IMG/VR virus record: IMGVR_UViG_3300028193_000173
Location: 1 to 38,530 of that record
Reading direction: 5' to 3' (one strand)
Source: a virus
Length of the DNA: 38,530 bases
Below, piece after piece: positions 8,490 to 26,998 of this stretch; position 1 is the stretch's first letter; every line of letters begins with the position of its first letter. The notes beneath the pieces are model-generated. The model saw only the letters and a program-made list of their open reading frames with translations, ran no database searches and was not told where the DNA came from. The translations under genes were made by a program, and so were the position numbers.

Positions 8490-9205
8490 AGTACTTAATG
8501 TATATCGGGCAGGGCAGAAGCACAGCTGTTGTTGGTGATACCGTTACTGTTGCTTTGGACGGTGTTAAGAAGGTTGATAACCCAACACAACCGGAATATC
8601 CCTATTATACGGCTTGCAAGATAACTGAAACTGATGTTAAATCAGTTGATAGTGTAGTGCCGTTGCGGGAGTTGGAACGGTTATCTCAAGTGACTATCGA
8701 CGATGGCGAGGCACTGTTCCAGGTGCATGTTTCTGGTATTGCTGAGGAGAATTACAAAAGTAGACGGTACGGATCGCTATCGTTCGGCGATATGATTATG
8801 GGTTGTCCTGCTCACATCGATCTGCGGATGAAGTTCGGCGGTAGCATTGAGCAGTTCGTACTCACAGGTACGACTGTGCGGGACATTGTTGAACGGCTCT
8901 ATAGTGGTGGCGAGATAAATATCGGTACGATAATAACTAAGAACTTGGAATATTACGATGAGGGGTCGGAGCCAGTTGTTAGCGAACGCGGTGAGATCAA
9001 GCTCGTCCAGAAGAAGGTGACACATATGCTTTCGCGGTGGGTGGAGTCGGACGCACATTATAGCTATCTGGGCTATCTCAGTTCGAACACTGTTACACGC
9101 GAAGTTGTTGGTGATAGTGTTCGGTATCTGTTTGGTGATGGGCAGATAACGGGTACTTTTGCACTCCGGCAGTATGATAACGGGTGGAAGTTCGTAGTTG
9201 CATGA
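8486..9205 (+). CDS. possible phosphoesterase-like (LigD PE) fold protein
   Basis: This 239-residue soluble protein contains a stretch near residues 75-125 with ALFQVHVSG and AHIDLRMKFGGSIEQFV. The H-x-D-L-R-[LM] motif followed by a G and a hydrophobic strand resembles the core of the 3'-phosphoesterase domain of LigD, a fold that I recall near prohead proteases in some phages. The C-terminal part is strand-rich with no known motif. Catalytic activity cannot be claimed because the remaining His ligands are not clear. The stop overlaps the next ATG. Confidence 0.4.
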   Translation: MKYLMYIGQGRSTAVVGDTVTVALDGVKKVDNPTQPEYPYYTACKITETDVKSVDSVVPLRELERLSQVTIDDGEALFQVHVSGIAEENYKSRRYGSLSFGDMIMGCPAHIDLRMKFGGSIEQFVLTGTTVRDIVERLYSGGEINIGTIITKNLEYYDEGSEPVVSERGEIKLVQKKVTHMLSRWVESDAHYSYLGYLSSNTVTREVVGDSVRYLFGDGQITGTFALRQYDNGWKFVVA

Positions 9206-9812
9206 GATGCTTCATTTTGGGTAACGGGCCGTCACTGAACGATGTAGACCTCACATTGCTGAAAGACGAAGCGACATTTGGCTGTAACCGTATATACCTC
9301 AAATGGTCAGACATGGGTTATCCCGTAACTAACTATTTCTTGATTGACACTTATTTCTGCTCATCGCTGCGGCTTGAAGTGCAGCCGTATCTCGATCGTG
9401 GCGTTAAGAAGTTCTTTGTGAAGCATCACAGTGATCGGTACATGCATAGCGATAAGGTTCATGTTGGCGAGGGGTTCATTTCCGTTGGTGAGGGCATGCT
9501 CACATATGCTGCAGAGATGGGTTACGACCAGATTTACCTGCTGGGTATTGATATGGATTATAGCGGGTTGAAGCAGCGGCTCGGTGCTGAGCGGGGCGTT
9601 ACGAAACTTAACGGCGATGACCAGTGGCACTTCGACCGTTCATATTGTGATAATGGGTTTTACTACAAAAAAAACAGGGTGTAGTAGCTCATGCTATGTT
9701 TAAGGATGCGTTCAACCGATTGAGCGGTCGTGGTATCAAGATATACAACGCGAGTGGAAATGGTAAGTTAGAGTATATACCCATAGTGGACTACTATTCG
9801 CTATTCGAATGA
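9202..9812 (+). CDS. DUF115/MptE-like protein 1, frameshifted
   Basis: The zero frame from ATG 9202 gives 160 residues starting MRCFILGNGPSLNDVDL, the Rossmann-like N-terminus of DUF115/MptE-like proteins, and stops at 9684. The -1 frame continues from 9675 for another 45 codons to a TGA at 9812. That tail (FNRLSGRGIKIYNASG, then VDYYSLF) aligns with the end of the paralogue at 11032 (VFNAGVDS, then VDYESLF). The junction is eight A then C, a canonical A-AAA-AAC slippery heptamer at 9669-9675, with a small TAGC/GCTA hairpin nine bases on. The -1 stop overlaps the next start by ATGA. Full length would be about 203 residues. The function is probably in glycan synthesis, as for DUF115 proteins beside sugar genes. 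Confidence 0.75.
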
Positions 9813-10522
9813 TTGTTGGTCTGTTACTGGGGAAATCTGGCAGCCGTGAGCTACCAAACAAGAACTTGGTTGAGGTGTGCGGGAAGCCACTAATGTGCTA
9901 TCCGCTTGAGGCGCTGTCGGCATCTGCAGTTGGTCGTGTGTTTGTTTCAACGGACTCCGCACGGATTGCTGAGGTTGGGTTGGGATATGGTGCTAGTATA
10001 ATCTATCGGCCCGCTCACTTGGCGACTGACGATGCGCTGATGGCGGATGTTATATCGCATAGTTACAAGATGATTCACAATGATTTGGGGCTGAGCATTG
10101 AATTTCTGGTGCTTCTACTTTGCAACTCGCCGACTGTTACTCCAGCACTGATTGATAAGGGTATTGAGCTATTGAGGGAGAATGAAGACGCTGATTCCTG
10201 TGCCACATTTTCACGTTATAACGAGTACAACCCAGCTCGTGCGATGCGTATAGTTGATGGTCATGCGGTTGCGTTTAACTTGCTTACTAGTACGTTCAGC
10301 ACATCCAACCGTGATAGTTTGGGTGATGTCTATTTCTATGATGGTGGGATGGCCGTTATGCGTACTCGCTGTGTGATACCACGTTACGGACGGCGTCCAT
10401 ATACGTGGTTGGGCAAACGATGCATACCACTCGTTCAGGAAGGTGGATTGGATGTTGATAATGAACGTGGTCTGGTACAGGCGGAATGGTGGTTGCGGGA
10501 GAATGGTATATGTGGTCGGTGA
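9809..10522 (+). CDS. CMP-sugar synthetase (NeuA/KdsB-like)
   Basis: This 237-residue cytidylyltransferase is of the acylneuraminate type. The nucleotide-binding loop is LLLGKSGSRELPNKNL, in place of the usual ARxGSKxxxxKN. FVSTDSARIAE, IIYRPAHLATDDA and LLLCNSPTVTP, the CTP/sugar-binding segment with a final D-N-E-R, are all present. It would activate a nonulosonate or related acid sugar with CTP. It is coupled by ATGA to the frameshifted DUF115 gene and overlaps the SGNH gene, so it belongs to the glycan operon. The exact sugar is unknown. Confidence 0.85.
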   Translation: MIVGLLLGKSGSRELPNKNLVEVCGKPLMCYPLEALSASAVGRVFVSTDSARIAEVGLGYGASIIYRPAHLATDDALMADVISHSYKMIHNDLGLSIEFLVLLLCNSPTVTPALIDKGIELLRENEDADSCATFSRYNEYNPARAMRIVDGHAVAFNLLTSTFSTSNRDSLGDVYFYDGGMAVMRTRCVIPRYGRRPYTWLGKRCIPLVQEGGLDVDNERGLVQAEWWLRENGICGR

Positions 10523-11045
10523 CAGCCATGCACGGGAACTGTTCGCGGGTCATAACGAGTACGATAATCACAAGGTTGGTACATGGGCTGCGTTCAGATT
10601 GCACACCCACCACGAAGAGTTTGTGAGGCATCTGAACGGGCATGAACACGATAAAATCATTGTCGTATTTGGTGAGATAGATGTGCGTGAGCATATAGTG
10701 GATCAAGCGAAAAAGCAGAACCGAACGACAGACGAATTGGTAGATGATACTGCGCTCTCGTTCGTTGAATACATCTCATCGTTATGTTACGATATTAGCA
10801 TATTGAGTGTCCCTCCAACTGGTGATGGTGATGACGACAAGGTATTCAGAGGTACATACGAGGAGCGGAAACATATTACCGAGCGGTTGAATGCACGATA
10901 TGAGTACTATTGCGGTCGATTTAATGTTCCGTTCGTTAATGTCTACAAATATTTAGTTGATGAGAACGGTGATAGACGCAAGGAGCTGGTGGTTGATCAG
11001 GTGCATTTAGGTTGCATTGCGGACATAATAAATGACCGAAGATAG
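10503..11045 (+). CDS. SGNH/GDSL hydrolase
   Basis: About 180 residues from ATG 10503. The N-terminus MVYVVGDSHAREL is SGNH block I with the catalytic Ser. VVFGEIDVRE is the GxND-like oxyanion block, and the C-terminal DQVHLG supplies the D-x-x-H pair. Such enzymes add or remove acyl groups, often acetyl on sugars. No signal peptide is visible, so it acts inside the cell, probably on a glycan precursor. It overlaps the preceding CMP-sugar synthetase by 20 bases and the following DUF115 gene by 14. Confidence 0.8.
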   Translation: MVYVVGDSHARELFAGHNEYDNHKVGTWAAFRLHTHHEEFVRHLNGHEHDKIIVVFGEIDVREHIVDQAKKQNRTTDELVDDTALSFVEYISSLCYDISILSVPPTGDGDDDKVFRGTYEERKHITERLNARYEYYCGRFNVPFVNVYKYLVDENGDRRKELVVDQVHLGCIADIINDRR

Positions 11046-11754
11046 AGTTCACGGAATGCGGGATCTGCTAGGGCGATATTACCACAAACACTGTGGTGAA
11101 CGGTGTTTCGTTTTAGGTAATGGGCCGTCGTTAAACAAACTCGATCTATCAAAGTTGTCTGATGAGTGGTTGTTCGGGTGCAACTGTATTTACCTGAAAC
11201 GCGACGAGTTGGAACGTGGCGTTGACTACTACTTCTTGGTAGATACGATCTTGGCGCCGCAAATACAGCATGAAGTGAACGAATATTTGTCACATGGCGA
11301 TATTAAGGTGCTGTTTCTGCATAGTGCCTATACCGATATCATTCATGATAATGGTGCAGATGTGATAGTTAGCCAGTGGAGTAATGTCGTTCAGTCTTTT
11401 AGTAATACAGGCACACTGATGGTGATTATTGCAGCGTATATGGGGTTCAATCCAGTCTATATGATTGGTATGGATGCGAACTATGACGGTATCGTAGATG
11501 GTTCACGACCTATAAGAAGGAATGTTCATACGCTCATCGGTGATGACCAGTGGCATTTCGATCCTAATTACTCACGAAAACCCGATGGGACGTCTATTGA
11601 GTTCATATTTGGTGTGGATGAAGCAAGTCTCATGTTAGCAGGATTTGATCGGGCATACGGTATAGCGGCTGGTTGTGGGTGCAGTGTATTCAATGCTGGT
11701 GTAGATAGCCGGTTACAGATTTTTGAGAAAGTGGATTATGAGTCGTTATTCTGA
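11032..11754 (+). CDS. DUF115/MptE-like protein 2
   Basis: A 240-residue, intact member of the DUF115/MptE-like family. CFVLGNGPSLNKLDL near residue 25 is the glycine-rich loop. FGCNCIYL, YYFLVDT and MIGMDANYDG are the following strands. GDDQWHFDPNYS is shared with the copy at 9202, and the end VDYESLF is also shared. Cellular relatives include 6-hydroxymethyl-pterin pyrophosphokinase (MptE) and glycosylation-associated proteins; the surrounding genes favour a glycan role here. It is the best template for judging the frameshift in the first copy. Confidence 0.8.
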   Translation: MTEDRVHGMRDLLGRYYHKHCGERCFVLGNGPSLNKLDLSKLSDEWLFGCNCIYLKRDELERGVDYYFLVDTILAPQIQHEVNEYLSHGDIKVLFLHSAYTDIIHDNGADVIVSQWSNVVQSFSNTGTLMVIIAAYMGFNPVYMIGMDANYDGIVDGSRPIRRNVHTLIGDDQWHFDPNYSRKPDGTSIEFIFGVDEASLMLAGFDRAYGIAAGCGCSVFNAGVDSRLQIFEKVDYESLF

Positions 11755-12407
11755 TGAAGAAAAAGAACGCTATAGTTACAGGTGCCAGTCGCGGGATTGG
11801 CAAGCAAATCGCTGATGATCTGGAAGCTGGTGGGGTTAACGTTTTGCGGTGCGATTCCAGCAATGTTAATTTGTTACAGGATGATTTTGACATCTTTGAA
11901 TCTCTTGAGCGGCTGTTGGATGGGTTAGAAGATAAAAGCATACATATTCTTGTGAACAACGCTGGTATTTCAACTGGTTGCGATGTTGATGTTTTACAGG
12001 TCAATTTGAGAGCACCGGATATACTAGTGACGTTCTTAAAACCTTACTTGACCGATGGTGCTCGTATCGTCAATATCGGCTCGGTCTACGGTTCTGTTAC
12101 TGAGATTGGTCGGGGGATGTACTCGGCATCCAAAGCTGGCATATCGTCACTTACGAGAACATTGGCACTCGAACTCGCGGATAGGAGCATTCTTGTGAAT
12201 TGTGTCGCTCCAGGGTTCACTGACACGGACATGACCAGAACACGGTTGGGTGAACGGGGCATGACAGAAAAGAGGCAGCAAATACCACTCGGTAGGTTGG
12301 CAACGCCTAAAGACATCTCAAATGTGGTGTTGTTCCTTTGTTCTGAATCAAACACATACATTACGGGGACGACGATTCTGGTCGATGGCGGTTACGTATT
12401 GCGATGA
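11754..12407 (+). CDS. short-chain dehydrogenase/reductase
   Basis: A 217-residue classical SDR. TGASRGIG binds NAD(P), NNAG is the stabilising motif, GSVY is the catalytic serine region, YSASK carries the catalytic Tyr and Lys, and LVDGGYVLR is the usual end. It would oxidise or reduce a hydroxyl/keto group on a sugar or cyclitol, given its neighbours. It is FabG-like in sequence, but an acyl-ACP role is unlikely in an archaeal virus. The start and stop both overlap neighbours by ATGA. Confidence 0.9.
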   Translation: MKKKNAIVTGASRGIGKQIADDLEAGGVNVLRCDSSNVNLLQDDFDIFESLERLLDGLEDKSIHILVNNAGISTGCDVDVLQVNLRAPDILVTFLKPYLTDGARIVNIGSVYGSVTEIGRGMYSASKAGISSLTRTLALELADRSILVNCVAPGFTDTDMTRTRLGERGMTEKRQQIPLGRLATPKDISNVVLFLCSESNTYITGTTILVDGGYVLR

Positions 12408-13408
12408 GTGAATTGTTTGCAACTGTTAAGACACGCGTAATCTCGTGTGAGGGTAATGCTTATAAGGTCTTCTTTGGCGACGCAAATGAAGCGCTGGCGA
12501 AGTACGGGTTGATGACTGTTTATCTGGTAGATTCAGAACTCAAAGAGTTAGAAATTGATAGTCAGAACATTATATACATAAATGCTAAGGAGATTAGCAA
12601 GACGTATTCCGCGATAGGAGTTACTATTGGGTTCATCTTACAGACCGGAATTAGAAGGAATTGGAAACTCGTTGCCATTGGTGGTGGCGTGATCCAGGAC
12701 GTTGCGGGGTTCATCGCATCGATATTATTCAGGGGTGTCAAGTGGGATTACTACCCGACAACGCTCTTGGCGCAGGCGGATAGTTGCATCGGGTCAAAGA
12801 CATCCATTAACGTTGATGGCTTCAAGAATCTGGTTGGTACGTTCTATCCACCTGAGCGAGTTGTAATAGATACAAAATTCCTAGAGACGTTGCCTTACAG
12901 TGCGGTTGTCTCTGGTATGGGCGAGATAGTCAAGTACCATATTCTTAATGGCGATTACAATCTGGTCAGCGAGGATTATGAAGAGTTGATCAAGTACTGT
13001 CTAAGGGTGAAGATGCCGTATATCGAGCAGGACGAATTTGATAGCGGGCTACGAAGATGCTTAAACTACGGGCATACGTTTGGGCATGCGCTTGAGACCG
13101 TTTCTGGTTATATGATACCGCATGGACAAGCAGTTCTGGCTGGTATGGATATTGCTAATTACATATCCTTCACACTCGGTCTTCTTTCTAAGGAAACATA
13201 CCGGAAGGTTCGCGGGTTCATTGCACCGCATATACTAGTACCGTACGATGCTGATACCGCTGCTATGCTCAAGGCGCTTGAAATGGATAAGAAGAATACT
13301 AATGGTGAACTAACCTGTATCTTATTGACGGATACGGGCATTAAAGAGACATGGTTGAGTTACAGTATGGTTAGCGGGTTGTTAGATGGATATAGAGCAG
13401 CAACGTAA
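12404..13408 (+). CDS. dehydroquinate-synthase-like sugar phosphate cyclase
   Basis: A 334-residue member of the AroB superfamily. IGGGVIQDVAGF binds NAD. PTTLLAQADSCIGSKTSIN then KNLVGTFYPP form the substrate region. GMGEIVKYH, GHTFGHALE and PHGQAV supply the Glu-His-His metal site. The NAD-dependent cyclases of this family make dehydroquinate, 2-deoxy-scyllo-inosose or valiolone-type cyclitols from different sugar phosphates. Lack of other shikimate genes and the sugar-gene context argue against dehydroquinate. With GmhA-like and transaldolase genes present, a heptulose phosphate substrate is attractive but not proven. Confidence 0.87.
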   Translation: MSELFATVKTRVISCEGNAYKVFFGDANEALAKYGLMTVYLVDSELKELEIDSQNIIYINAKEISKTYSAIGVTIGFILQTGIRRNWKLVAIGGGVIQDVAGFIASILFRGVKWDYYPTTLLAQADSCIGSKTSINVDGFKNLVGTFYPPERVVIDTKFLETLPYSAVVSGMGEIVKYHILNGDYNLVSEDYEELIKYCLRVKMPYIEQDEFDSGLRRCLNYGHTFGHALETVSGYMIPHGQAVLAGMDIANYISFTLGLLSKETYRKVRGFIAPHILVPYDADTAAMLKALEMDKKNTNGELTCILLTDTGIKETWLSYSMVSGLLDGYRAAT

Positions 13409-13964
13409 CTACTGGAAGGATATGACGATAGAAGATGCATACCGCTGGGGTGATCCTTTAAGTGGGTGTGCAAAGAGTAACGGTAAGGTATTGGGTAACT
13501 ATTTGAGCTTACTGAATCGGTTGGTTCCGCTGATCGCTGGCAAGGTAGTGGTTGAAATCGGTTGTGGAGCGGGCAAGTGGACTCAGTATCTGGCATTACA
13601 TGCGAAGGAAGTTGTTGCGGTTGATATTATTGATTCCAAGTACAGGTTCGTAGCGAAGAATGTGCGGTTCTATCCTACTAGCGGGTACGAGTTGAGCGGT
13701 ATAGCAACTGATTACGCGGACGTTATATTCTCGATCGATACGTTAGTCCGCACTGATAAGGTTGGTCTGATCAAGTACATGCTTGAATTCAAGCGAGTGC
13801 TAAAACCAGATGGCAAGATGTGCATACACTTGCCGTGTGAGATGCAACCACTGAGTAGAAAGTTCGGGTTTGAGAAGCTTAGTATGGAAGATATCAAGGA
13901 GTTGTTTGGCGTGTGTAATATCGATATGGAAACGATTAATCATGGCGTTATCGTCTGGGTATGA
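13386..13964 (+). CDS. SAM-dependent methyltransferase 1
   Basis: A 192-residue class I methyltransferase. VVVEIGCGAGKWTQYLA near residues 53-69 is motif I, VVAVDII is the acidic strand, and FKRVLKPDGKMCIHLP is the motif after the substrate strand. It is likely to methylate a sugar or a small molecule, since it lies between the cyclase and a radical SAM gene. It overlaps the cyclase by 23 bases. The substrate is unknown. Confidence 0.83.
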   Translation: MDIEQQRNYWKDMTIEDAYRWGDPLSGCAKSNGKVLGNYLSLLNRLVPLIAGKVVVEIGCGAGKWTQYLALHAKEVVAVDIIDSKYRFVAKNVRFYPTSGYELSGIATDYADVIFSIDTLVRTDKVGLIKYMLEFKRVLKPDGKMCIHLPCEMQPLSRKFGFEKLSMEDIKELFGVCNIDMETINHGVIVWV

Positions 13965-14089: not shown

Positions 14090-14093
14090 TAAA

Positions 14094-14942
14094 GTGATTT
14101 TAGAGTTGTCGAGTTCGTGCTTGGGGTTTTCTTGTCCGTTCTGTCCAAAAACGACTGAAAAAAAGAAACGCGAGAATGGGTTCATGCCGTTTGAGGTAGT
14201 GACGGCTCTGATTCCATTCGTTAAACCGGGTGAACACACATACATTGCGGGTTATGGCTGTAGTTTTTTAAACCCACAATTCGAGAAGATTGTCAAGTTC
14301 ATCAAACAGTGCGGTATCGGTACTATGCTTCCGACCAATGTAGCGGAACTGGAGTACCTCAGTGATTTCAGTACCTTGAGGTTTGTTGATGGGTTGCATC
14401 TATCGGTGGACTCACTGGTAGACAAGAAGTGGAAGGGTCAGGACGTTGAGAAGGTGCTTTCTACGATTGACCACATCAAGCAAATTGGTCATTCTGGGCT
14501 GATGGTGAATATGGTTATTAGGGAAGAAAACCTGTTTGAGATTCCCGATTTCATTACGGCGTTCATACTCAATCGCGGTATCCCTTTGCGGTTGACGTTC
14601 GAAAGCCCATGTTACACTATGACAGAGAACATGAAGAAACGATATACCAAGTTGGTGCGTGAATACAATAATCTCACTTCGTGGCTCTCTGCTTATCGGA
14701 ACCTGCAGGTGGCAGTTGACACTGGCTGTAGCAAGTTCGATACGTGTTCATTCAGAAAGAACAGGGAGCTGGTATTCGACTGGCAGGGCAACCAATACCC
14801 ATGTACGAACGCGTTCTTCTCACCGTATAAGTTCGATGCTGAGTCGCTACAGCAGGTATATGACGGTACGCATCCAGTTTGTGATACTTGTAAGAAGGTA
14901 GATGATATTTGGCGTGAGATTGGCATTAAGAGATTGGGTTAG
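14094..14942 (+). CDS. radical SAM protein with SPASM-like C-terminus
   Basis: A 282-residue protein from GTG 14094, after a strong GGAGG. The first cluster motif near the N-terminus reads C-LGFS-C-PF-C, that is CX4CX2C instead of the common CX3CX2C. GYGCSFLNP and LHLSVDS are the barrel strands expected in radical SAM enzymes. The C-terminus has a further cysteine set (CSKFDTC, YPCTNAF, VCDTCKK) like SPASM/twitch domains that hold extra iron-sulfur clusters. Substrates in sugar clusters include epimerised or deoxygenated sugars. It is uncertain whether this one acts on sugars or on a peptide. Confidence 0.75.
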   Translation: MILELSSSCLGFSCPFCPKTTEKKKRENGFMPFEVVTALIPFVKPGEHTYIAGYGCSFLNPQFEKIVKFIKQCGIGTMLPTNVAELEYLSDFSTLRFVDGLHLSVDSLVDKKWKGQDVEKVLSTIDHIKQIGHSGLMVNMVIREENLFEIPDFITAFILNRGIPLRLTFESPCYTMTENMKKRYTKLVREYNNLTSWLSAYRNLQVAVDTGCSKFDTCSFRKNRELVFDWQGNQYPCTNAFFSPYKFDAESLQQVYDGTHPVCDTCKKVDDIWREIGIKRLG

Positions 14943-14956
14943 GTGGTGTTGTTGAA

Positions 14957-15909: not shown

Positions 15910-15950
15910 CGTAATGTGTTCTTTTTGAAGGCGGCGAGGGGGGTTATTGA

Positions 15951-19449: not shown

Positions 19450-19461
19450 TGTCAGAAAACC

Positions 19462-19478: not shown

Positions 19479-19601
19479 GAGTAAAATAATGCCCTACAAT
19501 CGATTTTCTCATGTAAAAGTATACAACCCTACCCTGTTGAAATAAAAATGCACCAGATTGCATATATGGCAGTCTCAGAGGGTTTTGCGTGGTGATGCTA
19601 G

Positions 19602-19811: not shown

Positions 19812-19969
19812 ACACAATAGTAACCCGTTGTTTATGCCATGAGTGTCTATATTGTAAATTCGAGCGATGTAAGCTGAATGGAATCTCGATTACAGTTCCC
19901 CCGCCGCAGAACCCCACGGCTTCAGTCGTGGGAGTATGTCAGACTAACCGCTCACGATTGTTTGGCTGA
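19808..19969 (+). CDS. small Cys-rich protein carrying an IS605-type repeat
   Basis: Fifty-three codons starting at an ATG that overlaps the previous stop. The first 30 residues contain RCLCHECLYCKFERC, a compact zinc-binding knuckle typical of small archaeal/viral proteins. Codons 34-45 (QNPTASVVGVCQ) are exactly the 36-nt IS605-type sequence at 19907-19942. The frame stays open through it and for eight more codons. The original C-terminus was probably replaced by the insertion, or the element was tolerated because it is in frame. Confidence 0.5.
   Translation: MNTIVTRCLCHECLYCKFERCKLNGISITVPPPQNPTASVVGVCQTNRSRLFG
19907..19942 (+). mobile_element. second copy of the 36-nt IS605-type end
   Basis: This copy is identical over 36 nt to 15874-15909. 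It includes the stem CCCACGGC/GTCGTGGG (eight pairs, one G-T) with a TTCA loop and the GAGTATGTCAG terminus. Unlike the first copy, the upstream GGGGAGC hairpin region is absent. It therefore looks like a minimal right end or palindrome-associated element. The two copies flank roughly 4 kb of sugar genes. Confidence 0.7.
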
Positions 19970-19983
19970 TATAGCGCACCCAT

Positions 19984-20946
19984 ATGACCACTAAAGTCGG
20001 TATAATTGGCTACGGTAAAATTGGCAGACTCCGCAAGCAGCTAGTTGACAATAACAAGAACACCGAACTGTTTGGGGTGTTCGATCCGTACCAGCGTCCT
20101 GAGCTGATTCCCGATGGCGGTATGCCGTTACAAGACCTTGTCAGCGGTTCAGATCTCGTTCTTGTCTGCACACCACATTCAGAGAATGCCGGGATGGCTG
20201 CTGCGGTTATGACTGCGGGTAAGCACTTGGGATTGGAGAAGCCAATGGCGACTGACTACGGTACTGCTCATAACCTGTTAGCGTATCAAACCGCCGATAA
20301 ACAGGCGATGGTATTCATGAACCACAGGTGGCACGATTCGGTGATGCATGCACTCACAGAACTGCCGAGGTTGGGGTCTGTAATGTGGGTGCGGGGCGTT
20401 TATGGTAAGTACGAGTTGGAGAACTGGAGAACTGACCGAGAGCGGGCAGGCCGGGGCATTCTACTGAGTCAGGGTATACACATGGTGGATTTGTTCAGGC
20501 AGTTCGTTAAGGGCGAGTTGCAGGTTGTTGGTGCGATTGCGGATGAGGCGAACGGGATAGAACGCGATGTGATGGCGCTGTTGCGAGGGTCGAATGGAGA
20601 ACGCATATCGTTGCATTCGTCTGCTTTATTGTGGAAGAATACGTTCAGGTTAGAAGTGGGTTGTGAGCATGGTTACTTGACACTTGATGGGCTGATTACA
20701 TCCACACGGAGCTTTGGGTTCGCTGAGAAGTTAGTTGTGGGAGGAAAGCCAAACCAGTTCTATGCGAAGGGTAACCCGCCTGAGCAGACATTCTATTTTG
20801 ATAAGGATCCATCGTACAAACGCGAATTTGATTATCTCGTTGACTGTATAGTCGGAGGTGAGAAGGTAGAAATCTGCTCGCTAGATGACGCACTAGAGAC
20901 GATGCGATTGGTGCAGAACATCTACGATAAATGCGATGAACGATGA
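19984..20946 (+). CDS. Gfo/Idh/MocA-family oxidoreductase
   Basis: A 320-residue NAD(P)-dependent dehydrogenase. GIIGYGKIGRLRKQL is the dinucleotide-binding motif at the N-terminus, LVLVCTPHSENAG follows, and GLEKPMATDY carries the E-K-P motif with the catalytic Lys. RAGRGILLSQGIHMVDLFR is the substrate-domain motif with its catalytic D/H pair. It oxidises a sugar or inositol hydroxyl and is common in aminosugar and cyclitol pathways. The start ATG follows an IS605-type end by 40 bases. Confidence 0.9.
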   Translation: MTTKVGIIGYGKIGRLRKQLVDNNKNTELFGVFDPYQRPELIPDGGMPLQDLVSGSDLVLVCTPHSENAGMAAAVMTAGKHLGLEKPMATDYGTAHNLLAYQTADKQAMVFMNHRWHDSVMHALTELPRLGSVMWVRGVYGKYELENWRTDRERAGRGILLSQGIHMVDLFRQFVKGELQVVGAIADEANGIERDVMALLRGSNGERISLHSSALLWKNTFRLEVGCEHGYLTLDGLITSTRSFGFAEKLVVGGKPNQFYAKGNPPEQTFYFDKDPSYKREFDYLVDCIVGGEKVEICSLDDALETMRLVQNIYDKCDER

Positions 20947-21178
20947 AGAGATAAGGAGCAACCCATTCAGACTCAAGTTGCTTAGTGTACTCACTGAACA
21001 GTACAAACCCATTAATGTGATTGTTTCTGAATCTAATGTAGATCGGCATCCAGCATCGTGGCAGATTGCGGTCTTGGAGGGTTGTGATTGTGTTGACAAA
21101 GAGTATAGATTTGTTAATGGCAAAATATTTGAGGTTTATGCGATAACGCCAAAGGGGAGGCGCGTGGTGAATGGATAA
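20936..21178 (+). CDS. small winged-helix-like protein
   Basis: An 80-residue protein, overlapping the oxidoreductase stop and the isomerase start. A helix (FRLKLLSVLTEQ) is followed by a segment ending YAITPKGRRVVNG. The T-P-K-G-R-R end is typical of winged-helix regulators, where it closes the wing. This could be a transcriptional regulator of the cassette. The codons are AT-rich. Confidence 0.45.
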   Translation: MNDEEIRSNPFRLKLLSVLTEQYKPINVIVSESNVDRHPASWQIAVLEGCDCVDKEYRFVNGKIFEVYAITPKGRRVVNG

Positions 21179-21737
21179 AGAACAGATAGCTAACCAGTTG
21201 AAATTGGAGTATGCACTTTATAAACGCATAGATGCTGTTAGGATGCTAGTATTAGACCAATATGCAGATAAGATATTTACGCTATTTGATACTATTAAGA
21301 AGTGTAGGGGTACGATCTACATTTGTGGCAATGGTGGCAGCGCATTAACAGCGCAGCACTGGGCACTGCATCTATCTGAGCTGGGTAAGGATGTGCGGTG
21401 TTTGGTTGATAATGTCGGGCTGCTCACAGCAATTGCAAATGATTATGACTATGAGGGTATATTTTGGTGTCAGCTACGTAAACGAATAACTGAGGACGAT
21501 CTGTTGATTATGATCAGCGGTAGTGGGTTGTCGTCAAATATTAAAGCACTCACATCTTCTGCTGGTTACAAAGTTGGTATATTTGCTCGTGTGATGCCGA
21601 AGCGGATAGACCCAAGTAAAGTGTTCAGCTTACGTGAACGGTGTGATTTATTAATTGACCTTCCTACTACTGAGTATGGTACTGCTGAGGATATGCACCT
21701 CATGCTCATCCATCTGCTCGTGGAGTTAAACGGTTAG
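21171..21737 (+). CDS. gmhA: GmhA-like phosphoheptose isomerase (SIS domain)
   Basis: A 188-residue SIS-domain protein. TIYICGNGGSALTAQHWALH is the GmhA phosphate-binding loop. LTAIANDYDYEGIFWCQLR matches the GmhA segment that supplies active-site residues. LLIMISGSGLSSNIKAL is the second SIS loop, and the C-terminal AEDMHLMLIHLLVE holds the conserved E-x-x-H. GmhA converts sedoheptulose 7-phosphate to D-glycero-D-manno-heptose 7-phosphate. No HldE-type partner is visible in the window, so the product may go elsewhere. Confidence 0.85.
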   Translation: MDKEQIANQLKLEYALYKRIDAVRMLVLDQYADKIFTLFDTIKKCRGTIYICGNGGSALTAQHWALHLSELGKDVRCLVDNVGLLTAIANDYDYEGIFWCQLRKRITEDDLLIMISGSGLSSNIKALTSSAGYKVGIFARVMPKRIDPSKVFSLRERCDLLIDLPTTEYGTAEDMHLMLIHLLVELNG

Positions 21738-21952
21738 TCGTCTTGTGTTGCGGGTGATTGCGGCGGTTTTGACCAGTCGCGGCTGTTGCATATCGGACAT
21801 TTACCACCCTTGCCGTGTGCCCACAGGATGTAGATCACACCAGGCACGAAGAAGAAGAATAGCGAGATCGCTGCGATGGCGATGCTCACACCCTTCGTCG
21901 GTGTCACCCACTGGTTGCAATTACCGCAGTATTTCGTTCTTGTCATTTCCAT
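21734..21952 (-). CDS. zinc-ribbon membrane protein (lone minus-strand gene)
   Basis: Seventy-two residues on the minus strand, with YCGNCNQW at the N-terminus and KCPICNSRDW after a hydrophobic segment (about residues 21-44). The two C-x-x-C knuckles flank the segment, like LITAF-type or archaeal zinc-ribbon membrane proteins. The paired cysteines and a hydrophobic hairpin strongly support a real gene. Its stop overlaps the end of gmhA by four bases. It is the only convincing gene on this strand. The role is unknown; a membrane anchor or assembly factor is possible. Confidence 0.75.
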   Translation of the reverse strand: MEMTRTKYCGNCNQWVTPTKGVSIAIAAISLFFFFVPGVIYILWAHGKGGKCPICNSRDWSKPPQSPATQDD

Positions 21953-21999
21953 TATCTTGGTTTCTTGTCAATAAAAAGGTTTCGGTGCTGTGATGTATA

Positions 22000-22024
22000 G
22001 TTTTACTATTACTTATGAGAGAGG
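22000..22024 (+). promoter_or_regulatory. duplicated leader element, copy 2
   Basis: Twenty-four of 25 bases match 389-413. It lies between the minus-strand gene and the membrane protein gene, in a 104-nt gap that must drive both directions. The distance from its end to the next ATG is 32 bases, against 121 at the left end. A shared operator or promoter for two gene blocks is the simplest view. Confidence 0.6.
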
Positions 22025-22056
22025 AATGTTGTAGTTTTGTGTTATTGGAGTAGTTT

Positions 22057-22272
22057 ATGGACGATAAAAAAGTGTGTGTGACGCTCACTACTGTTCTGTG
22101 CATAACATTCCTCGAAGCAATCGCTCTCTATCAAGGCATCGACGGCAGAGGGTTCGTAGCGGTAATGACGATTCTTGGCGGGCTTACTGGATTGAGTATA
22201 AAGGGGGTTCTTGATGGTTTGGGTTTGGAATTGATACCGAGGAAACGAGACGGAGGGAATACGGGACAGTGA
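22057..22272 (+). CDS. small membrane protein
   Basis: Seventy-one residues with two predicted hydrophobic helices (about 6-25 and 33-55) and a basic C-terminus (IPRKRDGG). Two-helix proteins of this size include holins, but archaeal viruses rarely have a clear holin and none is assigned here. It is the first gene of the second cassette and overlaps the next GTG start. No specific family. Confidence 0.6.
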   Translation: MDDKKVCVTLTTVLCITFLEAIALYQGIDGRGFVAVMTILGGLTGLSIKGVLDGLGLELIPRKRDGGNTGQ

Positions 22273-23384
22273 TTAGTCCTTCTCTCTATGCAATGGTGAT
22301 TGCGCGTTTGGGTTCCAAACGGGTGAAGAATAAGGCGATACGGTATTTGGGCGATAAGTTATTAGTGGAATATCCGCTGATGCAGTTAGTGAATTTCATG
22401 CCAGCGGAACAGATATTCCTTAATTCGCCCGATGCCATATTCGAGGGTGTTGCTAAGAAGTATAACGTTGCATTCTATCGTCGCGATGAGGGTATGCGTG
22501 ACGGTACTCAGGACGATTTGACATACGACTTCTTCGTTAAACATCCGCAGTGCGAGTACTTGTTGCAGTTCAATCTCACATCACCGTTCATTACAAGTGA
22601 GGACTTAGTTGGATTTTTAGATTACTGGGCTGGAAGTCGGGTCGATGCATTGTATAGTGTCAAACGCGAGCAGATAGAGGCGATTTATGGTGGCGAGCCG
22701 GTGAACTTCGAGTTCAACGGGCATATGCAGCAATCGCAGGATTTGCAGCCAGTGTTCACATTCACATCGGGGTTAATGTTCTGGAGCAGGGCCGCGTTCA
22801 TGCGTAACTACGAGACGAACGGCGGACACGCTCTGTTCTGCGGCACTATCGGTTATTATGAGCTGAACGGTATAAGCACTATAGACATCGATTGGGAAGA
22901 GGATTTCTGGCTAGCTGAAGCGATCTTGGAGAAACAGCAGCAGGGTGAGACCGATCTGCTATATCATACTGATCCGGTCGAGTTCAACCGGGAAGATATA
23001 CTCACTAAGGATGGTGTTGCTCGTGTGGAGAACTATAAGATTCCGTTCAGGTTCAGGAACAATATCAACGATATATGTGATGGTTATACTAGTGATGTCA
23101 GTTGGTCAGTTGACCTAGCGAATACACCATCATACGCAATGGCGTTAATAACGCAGTTGAAAGACGAAAGCAACCGCGAACACATGCACCCGAACGCAGA
23201 GGAGACATGGATAATCATTTCTGGCGAAGCGGAGGTCACAATTGGCGATACTGTTTATCACGCCAATCCATTTGATGTTTATCGGATACCGAAAGGTGTT
23301 TGGCATAGTATTAAGGTGGTAACGGATAGATGTGTGAGGTTATCTGTAAATCGGGAACGGGAAGCTCACGTCTATCGTTCGTAA
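22269..23384 (+). CDS. CMP-sugar synthetase fused to a cupin
   Basis: A 371-residue fusion starting at GTG 22269. Residues 1-235 are a NeuA/KdsB-like cytidylyltransferase: YAMVIARLGSKRVKNKAIR is the CTP loop, YRRDEGMRDGTQDD and LLQFNLTSPFITSED are the expected segments. Residues about 255-365 are a cupin: EHMHPNAEETWIIISGEAEV gives the H-x-H and E of the metal site, and PKGVWHSI the last His. Cupins in sugar clusters are often 3,5-epimerases or 3,4-ketoisomerases. Synthetase and tailoring activity on one polypeptide is unusual. Confidence 0.85.
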   Translation: MISPSLYAMVIARLGSKRVKNKAIRYLGDKLLVEYPLMQLVNFMPAEQIFLNSPDAIFEGVAKKYNVAFYRRDEGMRDGTQDDLTYDFFVKHPQCEYLLQFNLTSPFITSEDLVGFLDYWAGSRVDALYSVKREQIEAIYGGEPVNFEFNGHMQQSQDLQPVFTFTSGLMFWSRAAFMRNYETNGGHALFCGTIGYYELNGISTIDIDWEEDFWLAEAILEKQQQGETDLLYHTDPVEFNREDILTKDGVARVENYKIPFRFRNNINDICDGYTSDVSWSVDLANTPSYAMALITQLKDESNREHMHPNAEETWIIISGEAEVTIGDTVYHANPFDVYRIPKGVWHSIKVVTDRCVRLSVNREREAHVYRS

Positions 23385-23403
23385 CATACTAACTGCTCTT
23401 TGT

Positions 23404-23814
23404 GTGTTGTTGTTACTTTTCAGTACTGTTTCAGCATCGGCTGATTTGCGGTTGTTCCTTGCGAACGATTCAACTGATCATCATGCGTACGTCAAAGGCG
23501 AATACATGTGCGGTCATTTTACTGAGGATTTGATACGTAACGCATCGATTGACGGGATAAGGATGTATCCGGTATATCTGTATGGCAGAGCGGGAAGGGA
23601 TCATTGCATTGCTGTCGCCGTTGTTGATGGCAATAGGTACTTTATCGAACCGCAAAGTGATGTCTGTTTGGATTATGAGACGTTTAAACGTATTTACAGC
23701 CGTTTTTATAACGGTTATCGTATTGGTTCTTGTTTGGAACACACTTATGGGCGTGGATCGTATGTGGTCGGGGTCTCAGACATCGGTGGGGTTTCTGGTA
23801 GCTCGTTATGCTAG
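23404..23814 (+). CDS. secreted transglutaminase-like cysteine protein
   Basis: A protein of 136 residues from GTG 23404. The start is a hydrophobic segment ending VSASA, a signal peptide with a cleavage site. YMCGHFTEDLIRNA supplies a Cys at the start of a helix, GRDHCIAVAVVDG a His on a strand, and RYFIEPQSD an acidic residue on the next strand. This Cys-His-Asp/Glu order fits a transglutaminase/papain-like fold. In-frame sequence before the GTG continues the signal (GKLTSIVRNILTAL) but has no ATG, GTG or TTG. It would act outside the cell, perhaps on the host envelope. Confidence 0.6.
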   Translation: MLLLLFSTVSASADLRLFLANDSTDHHAYVKGEYMCGHFTEDLIRNASIDGIRMYPVYLYGRAGRDHCIAVAVVDGNRYFIEPQSDVCLDYETFKRIYSRFYNGYRIGSCLEHTYGRGSYVVGVSDIGGVSGSSLC

Positions 23815-23936
23815 AGAATGATGAGAAAGAAACAGCACAATACGGGAAAACCGGTTGGAAAAAGCATCGTTCTGTGTTCGACGAAAGAACAGACGCTCTT
23901 ATGGAGACTATAGGATATGAAGAAGAACACAGTTGA
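23808..23936 (+). CDS. small charged protein
   Basis: Forty-two residues starting at an ATG that overlaps the previous stop, and ending 20 bases inside the aminotransferase gene. It is rich in Glu, Lys and Arg (QYGKTGWKKHRSVFDER). A coupling or regulatory peptide is possible. No known family. Confidence 0.4.
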   Translation: MLENDEKETAQYGKTGWKKHRSVFDERTDALMETIGYEEEHS

Positions 23937-24993
23937 GTTGGCGAATAGTCACGGGTCGTATCTTAATATCAATGGTGTAGACCACTTGGATTTCTGGTCG
24001 TTCTATAGCTCAGTGCCGTTAGGTTACAACCATCCAATGTGTGATGCGTTCAAGGTTATTGTCAAGGACGTTGTGGGTTTGAAGTTCGGTATGGGGCACG
24101 GTTTGGTAACTGATTTAGAAGAGGAAGCAAGCAAGCGGTTATTGGATACGGCATCGGAGTTCGATACTGTTTGGTTCGCAGCTTCTGGTTCACTTGCTAT
24201 TGAGAACGCTTACCGGGTAGCGTATTACGCTACTGGTAAGGCGCGGGTACTTACAGACCGCTATGCGTTCCACGGTATACACGGACTGTCAAACTGTTTC
24301 AGTTCTCCCGATGAGCGGTTGCTGTTCTCTGATTGCCCAAGTGTGCAGCGTGTGGATATGAATGTACCGATACAAGAGATGGATCCGGCGTTAGCGGGTG
24401 TGTTGATTGAACCGTTCAGATCATTGCATGGCGATCATACCGAGTTGGATGTGAATGTGTTGAAACGATACCGGCAGTATTGTGATAGCGTCGGCATACC
24501 ACTAATATTCGATGAGATCCAGACGGGTTTTGGTGCTACGGGTAGTATGTGGTACTACCAGAAGCTTGGCGTCGTACCTGACGTTCTGGTCTTCGGTAAG
24601 AAGGCGCAGGTGGCTGGTATGATGGTGAATAAGAAGTACAGCTGGGTGGTGCATGACTCACCTGAACTGTTCAATGCGACATTTAACGGTGATCTGTTGG
24701 ATTTGGTCAGGCTAGTATGCGTTCGGTCTGTTATCGATAGTGAGAAGCTGCTTGATCGGGTGAACAGGCAAAGCGAGATAATGAAACGCGAAGTGAACGA
24801 TATGCGTGGTGTGGGCTATCTACTCGCCTATCCTGTTGAGGATGCTGATGAGCAGTTACGCAAGCACCGAATACGTGATAAGTTCTTGGCGAACCGCACA
24901 GCAGATGATGAGCTGATCAAGATCAGACCAAATTTGGCTTTGACTGCAGATGAGATGGATGAGGCAATCTCAATTATGAAGGGGGTGGAATAG
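23917..24993 (+). CDS. class III aminotransferase (lysine 6-aminotransferase-like)
   Basis: A 358-residue PLP enzyme. FAASGSLAIENAYRVA binds PLP phosphate. IEPFRSLHGDHTELD and LIFDEIQTGFGATGSMW carry the cofactor Asp. VVPDVLVFGKKAQVAGMMV holds the Schiff-base Lys and closely follows the FGKKTQVCG motif of L-lysine 6-aminotransferases. At 358 residues it is shorter than usual (about 430), mainly at the N-terminus. In this context it may aminate a keto-sugar or cyclitol rather than lysine. Both readings are possible. Confidence 0.85.
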   Translation: MKKNTVELANSHGSYLNINGVDHLDFWSFYSSVPLGYNHPMCDAFKVIVKDVVGLKFGMGHGLVTDLEEEASKRLLDTASEFDTVWFAASGSLAIENAYRVAYYATGKARVLTDRYAFHGIHGLSNCFSSPDERLLFSDCPSVQRVDMNVPIQEMDPALAGVLIEPFRSLHGDHTELDVNVLKRYRQYCDSVGIPLIFDEIQTGFGATGSMWYYQKLGVVPDVLVFGKKAQVAGMMVNKKYSWVVHDSPELFNATFNGDLLDLVRLVCVRSVIDSEKLLDRVNRQSEIMKREVNDMRGVGYLLAYPVEDADEQLRKHRIRDKFLANRTADDELIKIRPNLALTADEMDEAISIMKGVE

Positions 24994-24997
24994 GAAA

Positions 24998-25702
24998 GTG
25001 GATCTGTATCTTGATTCTTTGGATGTTGAAATGATTGAACGGTACGCCCCATTCATTAGGGGGGTTACTTCAACACCGACATTTGCACAACGTGAGCGGC
25101 TCGAAGATTACGGTGTCGATTTGTTCAAGCAGATATTAGGTGTTTTGGGCAGTGGTAAGACCTTGCACATCTCAGCCCCGTTTTCTACGGTTAAGGAGAT
25201 TGTGGACTACCTCAAATTCGTTACGGACAGAATACCGCAACTAGCGGAGAAGCGGATAGTGTTCAAGTTGCCATGTACCGAAACGGGACTGCGAGTCGCT
25301 CGCCGATATGGGCGGATGTATGATATCGGGTTGCATATGATTTATACGGTTGGGCAGGTGATCTTAGCGAACGAAACACCCGCTAAGTGGCACTATCTAC
25401 TTGTTGGACGCGGGATAGAGTACGGATATGATATGAACCGGGTTGCCGCACTGAGCAGACGAGCGATGCTGGCATCTATCCGCAGTGCAGACATGGTGGA
25501 GCAATTCGTTGATCTGAATATACCGATGACAGTACCACCGCAAGTGCTGGAGGCGCTGACTGAATGCAAGCACACCCGGGACGGTCAGACGAAATTCATC
25601 GATGATTTCTTAGCTGGTAATCGCGACGGGTTCACGCGGGTTGATTGTACTAACGTTTGTGATCTTGAAGTGGATACATCTAACGATGCGTACTGGATTT
25701 GA
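24998..25702 (+). CDS. transaldolase / fructose-6-phosphate aldolase-like
   Basis: A 234-residue class I aldolase, starting at GTG 24998. MDLYLDSLDVEMI and IRGVTSTPTFA correspond to the D-x-A/S and the G-V-T-T/S-N/T-P motifs of small transaldolases. RIVFKLPCTETGL carries the Schiff-base Lys in the VKIP-T-x-x-G position. The family transfers C3 units and interconverts sedoheptulose 7-phosphate and fructose 6-phosphate, or cleaves fructose 6-phosphate. This can connect host hexose pools to heptulose phosphates used by GmhA-like and cyclase enzymes here. Confidence 0.85.
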   Translation: MDLYLDSLDVEMIERYAPFIRGVTSTPTFAQRERLEDYGVDLFKQILGVLGSGKTLHISAPFSTVKEIVDYLKFVTDRIPQLAEKRIVFKLPCTETGLRVARRYGRMYDIGLHMIYTVGQVILANETPAKWHYLLVGRGIEYGYDMNRVAALSRRAMLASIRSADMVEQFVDLNIPMTVPPQVLEALTECKHTRDGQTKFIDDFLAGNRDGFTRVDCTNVCDLEVDTSNDAYWI

Positions 25703-25821
25703 GACAGTATGATAACTAAATCATATTTGAGTTCGGAACTGTGAATTGTCGATTTGGTCGATGCGTGACATACCTACAAACCCGATTTTAGATGCCTGAG
25801 CGATTGTGGAGGTGTTGGTAG

Positions 25822-26529
25822 ATGAGAGTGGAATTACTGCGTGTTACTGAAGATGGTATCAATTTGATAGCTAATGCGGCACGCGTTACGAGAGAATTGC
25901 CGGGCAAGGATGCAACCGATATCGTCGGGCTGGTCGTGAGGAACGATTATTCGTCCGTGCTTGAGCATGTTAGTTTCACGTTCGATATTAGCGGTATAAG
26001 CATCGCACTGAGCCGCTGGCTGCTGGAACACCGGATGGCGAGCCATACTGCGAGAAGTACGCAATACAACGAGGAGGACGAGTTCGACTACTACCTGCCC
26101 GATCCGGGCGATGTGCCTAACCGCCGTCTCATTATTACGGAGTTCCTTGATGCGATGAACGATGCGAAGATCCATTACAGGGCGTTACGTACACGGGGCG
26201 TCAGTCGCGAGCTTGCGAGGTACGTACTGCCGATGTCGGCACATACACGGTATGTACTGACAATGAACTGCAGGAGCCTGATAAACTTCTTCTCGCTGCG
26301 GTTATGTGTACGAGCCGCGCCTGAGATGCGAACACTGGCAGAGAAGATGTACGATTACTGCTATGCGGAATATCCTGAGATATTCGAACAGGTGGGATGC
26401 CGCGGCGTTACTAATGGTGTGTGTCCCGAGAACGGTGTGCGGCCTGACAACTGCCCGCACAAGCACATACCGACTAAAGCGGAGGTGCAACATGAAACTC
26501 TCGCCGCGATTGAAGCAGAAGCTGAGTAA
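25822..26529 (+). CDS. thyX: flavin-dependent thymidylate synthase
   Basis: A 235-residue ThyX. VLEHVSFTFDISGIS is the N-terminal strand region. The signature near residues 68-83 reads EHRMASHTARSTQY, with Glu in place of the usual first Arg of RHRxxS. RYVLPMSAHTRYVLTMNCR then NFFSLR forms the dUMP/FAD site. An extra Cys-rich tail (CRGVTNGVCPENGVRPDNCP) is present. It makes dTMP from dUMP using folate and FAD. ThyX is known in viruses of methanotrophic archaea. A GGAGGTG ribosome-binding sequence precedes the ATG. Confidence 0.92.
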   Translation: MRVELLRVTEDGINLIANAARVTRELPGKDATDIVGLVVRNDYSSVLEHVSFTFDISGISIALSRWLLEHRMASHTARSTQYNEEDEFDYYLPDPGDVPNRRLIITEFLDAMNDAKIHYRALRTRGVSRELARYVLPMSAHTRYVLTMNCRSLINFFSLRLCVRAAPEMRTLAEKMYDYCYAEYPEIFEQVGCRGVTNGVCPENGVRPDNCPHKHIPTKAEVQHETLAAIEAEAE

Positions 26530-26998
26530 GGTTCGGTTGGTGCTTACTGATGTTGATGGTGTGCTCTGCACTCGCGATTTGTGGCTTGCGGGTGGTCAGG
26601 ACATTAAACGGTTCAGTGCGTTAGATGGTATCGGCAAGTACAAGTTGGATAAGCTCGGTATTGTGGTTGGTATCATCACGGGTCGTGAGAGTGAGACAGT
26701 CAGGGTGCGAGCATGTGAACTGGGTATTGAACTCGTTCGCATCGCTACTGCTAGTAAGGTACGCGAGTACGATATGATCATGGCCGATGGTACATGGACG
26801 GCAGACGAAGTATGTTATATAGGTGATGACGAACCGGATACCGAGTTGTTCACTGAGGTTGGGTTGGCGGTTGCACCCGCTGACACATCAATAACGGTAC
26901 GGTCATATGCGGACTACGTCACTATCGCTAAGGGCGGTGGCGGTGTGCTGCGTGAGGTGGCTGATCTGATCGTTGCGGTACAGGCACAATGCGCATGA
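26492..26998 (+). CDS. kdsC: KdsC-like HAD phosphatase
   Basis: A 168-residue HAD protein from ATG 26492, with GGAGGTG nine bases upstream inside thyX. VRLVLTDVDGVLC holds the nucleophile D-x-D. FSALDGIGKYKL and VGIITGRESETV are motifs shared with KdsC. VCYIGDDEPDTEL is the metal-binding motif and VAPADTSITVRSYADYVT the C-terminal signature. KdsC removes phosphate from Kdo 8-phosphate, and relatives act on nonulosonate 9-phosphates. With two CMP-sugar synthetases present, it likely dephosphorylates the acid sugar before CTP activation. No condensing (NeuB/KdsA) enzyme is visible. Confidence 0.88.
   Translation: MKLSPRLKQKLSKVRLVLTDVDGVLCTRDLWLAGGQDIKRFSALDGIGKYKLDKLGIVVGIITGRESETVRVRACELGIELVRIATASKVREYDMIMADGTWTADEVCYIGDDEPDTELFTEVGLAVAPADTSITVRSYADYVTIAKGGGGVLREVADLIVAVQAQCA

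Follow-up and report, generated by a model that had tools for sequence, protein, structure and literature searches.

Results

The window analysed here, a virus fragment of 38.5 kb (38,530 nt), carries a cassette of 27 ORFs (9184-26998) that all lie on the plus strand, as do all features named below, and are packed tightly or overlap. About 19 of these ORFs are assignable to carbohydrate enzymes, and adjacent genes match curated families at 1e-40 to 1e-100; judged from such matches, the density of carbohydrate genes is far above chance. The original prediction of more than 20 sugar genes on about 17 kb was right about the cassette and too high in its count, since only about 19 ORFs are of carbohydrate type and the gene at 25822-26529 encodes the thymidylate synthase ThyX (2.7e-46), which is no glycan gene.

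The cassette sits between packaging genes on its left and the S78 prohead protease (27314-27862) and HK97-fold major capsid protein (34647-35624) on its right. The left flank comprises TerL (3796-5199) and portal (5163-6494), both assigned by sequence match, a MuF head protein with a mini-intein (6498-7520), a protease-like ORF (7681-8148), an ORF at 8145-8489 and, as the final gene left of the cassette, an ORF at 8486-9205 with homologues in the sister viruses G433 and G434. The GC skew of the cassette matches that of the entire record, and the right part of the window is 99.7-99.9% identical to contigs L001 and L002 from two other samples. As predicted, two further glycosyltransferases were recognized by family matches upstream of the terminase genes, one Anp1/GT-A-like (814-1524) and one GT1/GT4-like (1538-2602). 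Both are kept in G432 and G433 at 32-36% identity.

Among the sugar-making and tailoring genes are a PseF-like CMP-sugar synthetase (9809-10522, 1.6e-24), an SGNH/GDSL esterase- or acyltransferase-like protein (10503-11045) with a match under the Pfam cut-off, an SDR oxidoreductase (11754-12407) and an AroB-related, TIGR04425-like sugar-phosphate phospholyase (cyclizing; 12404-13408, 1.4e-100). They are joined by a SAM methyltransferase (13386-13964), a radical SAM protein (14094-14942) of a kind also found with the clusters of G432, G433 and G434, a methyltransferase-like protein (14957-15610) assigned by a sequence motif and with a homologue in the cassette of contig L125, and an NAD-dependent sugar epimerase/dehydratase (15951-16910). 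The right part of the cassette encodes a Gfo/Idh/MocA oxidoreductase (19984-20946), a SIS-domain GmhA/phosphoheptose-isomerase-like protein (21171-21737), a CMP-sugar synthetase fused to a cupin (CTP_transf_3 + Cupin_2; 22269-23384), a class III PLP aminotransferase (23917-24993), a transaldolase/fructose-6-phosphate-aldolase-like protein (24998-25702), whose homologue in G433 is fused to KpsF-like CBS domains, and a KdsC-like HAD phosphatase (26492-26998, 1e-33) with its true start at about 26492. Family matches thus bore out the enzymes listed in the original prediction, namely two CTP-sugar synthetases, a KdsC-like phosphatase, SDR, epimerase, oxidoreductase, aminotransferase, methyltransferases, radical SAM, cupin and transferases. 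The AroB-related cyclase, the SIS/GmhA-like, transaldolase-like and SGNH-like proteins and several MptE/Maf/Cst-type transferases had not been named there. Two copies of an orphan IS200/IS605-type right-end hairpin lie at 15871-15914 and 19904-19947; such an end was not found in the other viral contigs searched.

The proteins encoded at 9809, 22269 and 26492 are CMP-sugar synthetases and a phosphatase of KDO/nonulosonic type, each scoring under the equivalog cut-offs. No PEP-dependent ulosonate synthase (KdsA or NeuB) was detected among the scanned ORFs of the window, and with NeuB missing a standard sialic or pseudaminic acid pathway was unsupported. These gene families predict that the cassette yields CMP-activated sugars, but with KdsA and NeuB missing they do not fix the class of the product.

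The AroB-related protein scores 336.7 bits against TIGR04425, below the curated cut-off of 400, and 247.7 against AroB. Its DHQ-synthase motif residues (D126, K132, K141, N142, E174, H224, H228, H240 and K296) are invariant. The AroB-related gene, for which 193 cellular stretches were matched, adjoins the SDR gene in the window as in cellular loci; the SDR is its partner in 80/80 cellular and 36/39 viral loci. In contrast, a class III aminotransferase accompanies it in 21 of the 39 viral loci and in only 5 of the 80 cellular ones, which marks this enzyme as a virus-typical partner. Marine phage contigs also contain the core of CMP-synthetase-cupin, SDR, AroB-related cyclase and class III aminotransferase. 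The AroB-related/SDR pathway is widespread and uncharacterised, with a clear expected activity.

The Maf-like transferase is present in four copies, two of which are truncated: an MptE/Cst-like protein lacking its C-terminus (9184-9684, 166 aa) and a fragment of 61 aa (15607-15792). The other two are a putative CMP-sugar transferase with a Maf/Cst-I/II fold (11032-11754) and an MptE/Maf-like transferase (18766-19449) with 38-39% identity to its counterparts in G432 and G433. For the PF01973 domain, the protein at 18766 scores 52.1 bits (cut-off 34.6), while those at 11032 and 9184 remain under the cut-off. An AF2 model of the 11032 protein (pLDDT 81) matches Maf (5mu5) at Z 14.3 and Cst-I/II at Z 12-12.6 (2p2v, Z 12.6; 1ro8, Z 12.5), with MjHPPK (Z 11.1) as a competing fold match, and the transferase profile matches CstII at 1.5e-8. 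The viral Maf-like proteins have a single domain of 227-240 aa and lack the extra N- and C-terminal domains of Maf. Fold and profile matches suggest small cytosolic transferases of Maf/Cst-II fold that are putative users of CMP sugars. Two paralogous GT2-type transferases (16988-17779 and 17913-18698) are 38% identical to each other. Only one ORF of the cassette, of 71 aa, encodes a membrane protein, and genes for lipid carrier, flippase and polymerase are absent from the cassette.

The sister viruses G432-G434 were reached only by a search with the transferase alignment; single-protein scans of viral contigs with TerL, portal and CTP-cupin found no relatives. A cassette also occupies the corresponding site in G432 and G433, whereas in G434 (capsid 46% identical) the same neighbour genes flank a site empty of the cassette. 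The relatives use other sugar routes, with KdsA in G432 and G433 (scoring above the curated cut-off in G433) and NeuB in G434. DNA identity between the siblings G432 and G433 is 90-91%, but the transferase and the CMP synthetase stand apart, with protein identities of 72% and 50%, respectively, and two dehydrogenases (ADH and SDR) nearby are present in one and absent from the other. CMP-synthetase and transferase have been exchanged between these siblings. Gene content was thus compared across related viruses as the original prediction had proposed; the exchangeability of the locus and the very probable archaeal host had not been part of it.

All capsid matches are to haloarchaeal viruses, the best 11 matches of ThyX are all to archaeal viruses, the best matches of a DNA methylase in the window are a Methanoculleus virus and phiH, and G433 encodes a PCNA that is nearest to that of Archaeoglobus. 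Because these proteins have archaeal or archaeal-virus sequences as their nearest neighbours, the virus is very probably a tailed virus infecting an archaeon. The likeness of TerL is ambiguous, as it also resembles Thermus/Meiothermus phages. A comparison of positions 18600-38530, half of the window, with 398 Thermoproteota genomes gave no convincing host link but only weak matches to a tRNA, the methylase and the aminotransferase. Contig L021, titled Thaumarchaeota, was dropped as host evidence, since it groups with L005, a viral contig, and is itself probably viral and mis-binned.

Discussion

From the genes, their viral setting and a site that is shared or empty among relatives, we infer substrates, product, acceptor and benefit as follows. 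The isomerase and the transaldolase-like protein would supply a sugar phosphate, from which the AroB-related enzyme would remove the phosphate and cyclise the product. The SDR, Gfo/Idh, aminotransferase, methyltransferase and radical SAM enzymes may then tailor the cyclised sugar, the cytidylyltransferases would activate it to a CMP sugar, and the soluble Maf/Cst-II-fold transferases together with GT2-type enzymes could transfer it to an acceptor in the cytosol, for which virion proteins encoded by neighbouring genes on the same strand are the likeliest candidates. We give a probability of roughly one half to this reading of the cassette as a glycan locus of the virus's own that is exchangeable and works in the cytosol, with virion proteins as the likeliest acceptor. 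Related viruses would retain the locus while replacing the transferase and the route to the sugar (AroB-related, KdsA or NeuB), a pattern expected where receptors or rival viruses impose shifting selection on an exposed glycan.

Glycosylation of virions or re-coating of the host had been offered as a guess between two, and gene content leans to cytosolic protein glycosylation because genes for lipid carrier, flippase and polymerase are missing and the transferases are of Maf/Cst-II type. The chief rival to virion glycosylation is that a sugar is added or altered on the S-layer or N-glycans of the infected host via the host's dolichol carrier and AglB, which would block superinfection. Carrier, flippase and oligosaccharyltransferase could indeed come from the host, given the archaeal pathway (PMC10384203), GT1/GT2-type transferases are present, and the authors of the pelagimyophage study prefer such a use for their LPS-type genes (PMC7029224). 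We nevertheless consider host re-coating somewhat unlikely, as the cassette has no membrane or carrier-priming enzymes, its transferases resemble soluble Maf/Cst proteins, and its genes lie within the head module, where late expression would be expected. The choice of virion over host surface draws on missing membrane genes and on location, and the lipid carrier and flippase may be those of the host. It is less probable still that the pathway is incomplete and only tailors or diverts a CMP sugar of the host, with several genes decaying. The lack of KdsA and NeuB in the window, the truncated transferases at 9184 and 15607 and the two orphan IS605-type ends point in this direction, but many viral contigs share the combination of AroB-related, SDR, CTP-cupin and aminotransferase genes, and the catalytic motifs of the AroB-related protein are intact.

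No other contig reaches across both junctions of this particular virus, L001 and L002 covering its right part alone, which would leave room for an assembly chimera or for a glycan island of the host fused to viral ends, the condition under which the original prediction was to fall. This origin is rejected, and the explanation largely refuted, because the same site is occupied in G432 and G433 and empty in G434. In addition, a ThyX of archaeal-virus type lies inside the cassette and shares 60-62% identity with those inside the G432 and G433 cassettes, codon use is like that of the left structural genes (permutation p 0.053), and the cassette enzymes sit on extreme tree branches (1.69 versus a median of 0.23), unlike a recent host island. 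That the cassette is part of the viral genome and virus-encoded, as predicted, is well supported by these comparisons. Synthesis of a modified nucleobase for viral DNA, with no glycan involved, would fit ThyX, the radical SAM protein, the PLP aminotransferase and the DNA methylase in the window. It is highly improbable in view of the CMP-sugar synthetases and sialyltransferase-fold enzymes, and DNA hypermodification was rejected as no supporting families, neither nucleotide kinases nor DNA glucosyltransferases, were found among the scanned ORFs of the window.

Returning to virion glycosylation, we tentatively extend it to a broader proposal that is quite possible, if short of probable: the portal-protease site of archaeal tailed viruses may be a dedicated 'glycan-type' locus exchanged in modules. 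Each version would specify a CMP-activated sugar, ulosonic or carbocyclic, that differs from those of the others, use its own sialyltransferase-fold enzyme and decorate the capsid of the virus itself, so that surface types could switch by recombination. If true, archaeal viruses make rare sugars of their own rather than borrowing them from the host and vary them like bacterial O-antigens, and archaeal virion glycosylation becomes directly testable with defined enzymes.

A literature search turned up no paper on a virus of archaea that carries a cassette of this kind. The head module shares the order of TerL, portal, protease and capsid with Haloferuviridae/Kirjokansivirales (HFTV1, HRTV-29), and HRTV-29 likewise has cargo genes between the portal and capsid-region genes; however, capsid identity to these viruses is 25-30% and they have no glycan cassette. 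A precedent for glycosylated structural proteins is the archaeal head-tailed virus HRTV-DL1, in which, as in other archaeal viruses, structural proteins stain as glycoproteins, although that study describes no virus-encoded pathway for sugars comparable to this one (PMC10384203). The bacterial Maf system, which O-glycosylates flagellin with CMP-nonulosonic acids (PMC11339370), shares PF01973, the Cst-II-like fold, CMP sugars and a cytosolic location. In contrast to the single-domain viral proteins, Maf has 632 aa, and no flagellin is present here.

The original prediction also held that the cassette goes beyond the usual handful of viral glycosyltransferases, which is correct for tailed viruses in general, but precedents exist. 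The clusters of Megavirinae comprise 6-33 glycosylation genes (PMC10117803); they are likewise virus-encoded, furnish the virion surface with rare sugars of bacterial type and differ in content between clades, but these are giant eukaryotic viruses with virion fibrils and no homologous locus. Closer in gene content are the T4-like marine phage contigs L003-L006 and the pelagimyophages (PMC7029224), in which CTP-synthetase-cupin, SDR, AroB-related cyclase, class III aminotransferase and an MptE-like transferase are adjacent; the cassettes of L003-L006 adjoin structural genes and are as large as the one described here. They belong, however, to large bacterial phages of myovirus type that carry DegT aminotransferases and genes of GDP-mannose type, their AroB-related protein is only 38-42% identical, and they lie elsewhere than at the portal-protease site. 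Large viral glycan clusters are therefore already known, and it is the archaeal, site-fixed and exchangeable form that is new.

Gene content of the cassette

The complete IMG/VR record, 38,530 bases long, is a linear fragment; GC skew is positive over the whole window, and all relevant genes are encoded on the + strand. The cassette (9184-26998) holds 27 ORFs, about 19 of which were assigned as carbohydrate-type. With ORF starts in brackets, it encodes a PseF-like CTP synthetase (9809), an SGNH esterase-like protein (10503), an SDR (11754), an AroB-related cyclase (12404; TIGR04425, 1.4e-100), two methyltransferases, a radical SAM protein (14094), an epimerase (15951), two paralogous GT2-type enzymes (38% mutual identity), a Gfo/Idh/MocA protein (19984), an SIS/GmhA-like protein (21171), a CTP synthetase-cupin fusion (22269), a class III aminotransferase (23917), a transaldolase-like protein (24998), a KdsC-like phosphatase (26492) and MptE/Cst-like transferases (11032, 18766; truncated copies at 9184 and 15607). 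ThyX (25822-26529), not a sugar gene, sits amid them, and two glycosyltransferase genes (814, 1538) lie upstream.

Two identical 30-base hairpins (15879-15908 and 19912-19941) were found just 3' of transferase genes and match ends that, in plasmids of Natronomonas and Geoalkalibacter, immediately follow tnpB genes. The enclosing right ends (15871-15914 and 19904-19947) are near-identical, of IS200/IS605 type and orphan, lacking tnpB; the epimerase, both GT2 genes and a transferase occupy the 4 kb between them. The hairpins suggest IS200/IS605 activity in the past.

A shared viral site

The cassette is flanked on the left by TerL, portal and MuF genes and on the right by genes for an S78 protease, a scaffold-like protein and an HK97-type capsid. 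Searching with the aligned transferases recovered two relatives, G432 and G433 (contigs L151 and L152), with a cassette in the same setting. They share with the window TerL (28-30% identity), portal (26-28%), a GT2-type enzyme (33-37%), ThyX (60-62%), a transferase (38-39%), CTP synthetase, transaldolase and the S78 protease, and both upstream glycosyltransferases are retained; the G433 capsid is 30% identical to that of the window. The similarity of ThyX exceeds that of capsid, portal and TerL (at most 30%), which may reflect recent exchange or unusual constraint.

In the 89-kb relative G434 (capsid 46% and protease 41% identical), the homologue of ORF 8486, the last gene left of the cassette, lies at 75314-76321, with a 96-aa ORF between it and the protease ORF (76623), so that the site is empty. 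Together with the occupied sites of G432 and G433, this places the cassette site between ORF 8486 and the protease, an interval that spans 18.1 kb (window), 8.7 kb (G433) or 0.3 kb (G434). The original prediction of a virus-encoded glycan synthesis cassette had to compete with a host island or a chimeric assembly, and neither was found, the site being occupied in two relatives and empty in a third. Although both junctions of this exact virus are spanned by one contig only, itself a fragment, and two contigs from other samples (L001 and L002; 99.7-99.9% identity to the right part of the window) end short of the cassette, the shared and empty sites rule out a chimera for practical purposes. Since the sugar cluster of G434 lies away from the portal/protease site, the fixed-site claim draws its support from the window and from G432 and G433, the latter two being close siblings. 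In another virus record (G419; L125/L139-L142, 66.5 kb), a cassette with MptE/Maf-like and AroB-related genes directly follows TerL-like and portal genes; cargo may therefore be inserted repeatedly at the border between packaging and head genes.

We infer from sequence affinities that the host is an archaeon. All capsid matches among phage records are haloarchaeal viruses, the best 11 ThyX matches are viruses of Sulfolobales, and the DNA methylase is nearest to a Methanoculleus virus and phiH and shares 54% identity with the G434 enzyme in its best segment. The PCNA of G433 is nearest to the clamp of Archaeoglobus, and G434 has a gene for an ERCC4/HHH nuclease; the affinity of TerL is ambiguous. 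Half of the window gave no convincing match in 398 Thermoproteota genomes.

Core module and route swapping

Relatives of the AroB-related protein occur in 193 cellular stretches, of which 80 loci covering about 20 phyla were kept. Genes present in these were SDR (80/80), Gfo/Idh (61/80), SIS (38/80), CTP-cupin (24/80) and class III aminotransferase (5/80), against SDR (36/39), CTP-cupin (23/39), aminotransferase (21/39) and Gfo/Idh (2/39) in viral contigs. The aminotransferase version of the module is thus virus-typical (Fisher p 1.3e-8), with the reservation that the loci are not independent and that the E-value limits differed slightly between the viral and the cellular counts. The window enzymes sit on very long tree branches, which fits long viral residence. 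A contig titled Thaumarchaeota ASW8_bin1 (L021) carries the viral-type module almost identical to that of a T4-like marine phage contig (L005) and probably represents viral sequence placed in an archaeal bin.

The window takes the AroB-related route. The G433 cassette encodes KdsA (292.5 bits; curated cut-off 242 bits), a HAD protein, CTP synthetase, ADH, SDR and a transaldolase fused to KpsF-like CBS domains. The G434 cluster, elsewhere in its genome, encodes NeuB (3e-65), CTP synthetase, class III aminotransferase, SDR, cupin, a transferase, radical SAM, a GT2-like enzyme and DNA methylase; ORFs adjoining NeuB (23643-24726, L163) resemble, by eye, AdoMet decarboxylase and sulfatase. Between the siblings G432 and G433, a short segment of 72.6% DNA identity is flanked left and right by DNA of 90.5-91.4% identity. 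In this segment G432 lacks ADH and SDR, and the transferases and CTP synthetases are 72% and 50% identical in protein, against 91-99% for nearly all adjoining proteins (83.6% for the methyltransferase bordering the segment). The differing genes are those predicted to select the sugar for activation and transfer.

Predicted function

The presence of two cytidylyltransferases and a KdsC-like phosphatase suggests CMP-activated sugars of an ulosonate-like kind; KdsA and NeuB are absent from the window, so its genes do not fix the exact sugar class. The structure model of transferase 11032 (pLDDT 81) matched, almost over its full length, the Maf glycosyltransferase (Z 14.3) and the sialyltransferases Cst-I/Cst-II (Z 12-12.6), ahead of the archaeal HPPK fold (Z 11.1). 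The family profile reaches CstII by sequence (1.5e-8), and the Maf domain PF01973 has been grouped with Cst-II and CMP-sugar donors (PMC11339370). Among the cassette proteins, only one 71-aa ORF has a convincing membrane span; hence a flippase, polymerase or lipid-priming enzyme is absent, which speaks for cytosolic transfer to protein acceptors. We would put the virion ahead of the host surface as the glycan target at about 2:1. Possible acceptors are ORFs 34111, 35942 and 36734 (34111-37750), with 16-22% Ser/Thr and 7-9 N-x-S/T sequons each, above nearly all other window proteins.

Other features of the window

The window differs from L001 by 19 mismatches over 6.9 kb, 15 of which fall within 48 bases (35948-35995), a sharply local replacement at the N-terminus of the probable structural protein ORF 35942. 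The C-terminal part of a 509-aa tail protein (37762-38529, continued in L001; phrog_5302) resembles, by eye, a receptor-binding fold of the C-type-lectin or DGR type, and no reverse transcriptase was seen. The MuF head protein (6498-7520) contains a mini-intein at about residues 170-326, inserted at an HPN-C...C-E-C motif (Pfam Intein_splicing weak, 2.6e-4; phrog_36001, 1.9e-12 over the same part), in which no endonuclease was seen. A 24-base unit is repeated in tandem at the left record end (6-159; 6.4 copies, 97% alike), and genes for tRNA-Ala(tgc) (28272-28344) and tRNA-Pro(tgg) (29880-29952) lie in a stretch poor in long ORFs (28.2-30.2 kb).

Comparison with known systems

Within an incomplete coverage of the literature, we found no publication that describes a cassette of this kind, or fixed-site route swapping, in archaeal tailed viruses. 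Large viral glycan clusters as such are already known from Megavirinae (PMC10117803) and from marine myophages (PMC7029224), and the marine myophage contigs L003-L006 carry them as well. Among archaeal viruses, the structural proteins of HRTV-DL1 are reported to be glycosylated (PMC10384203).
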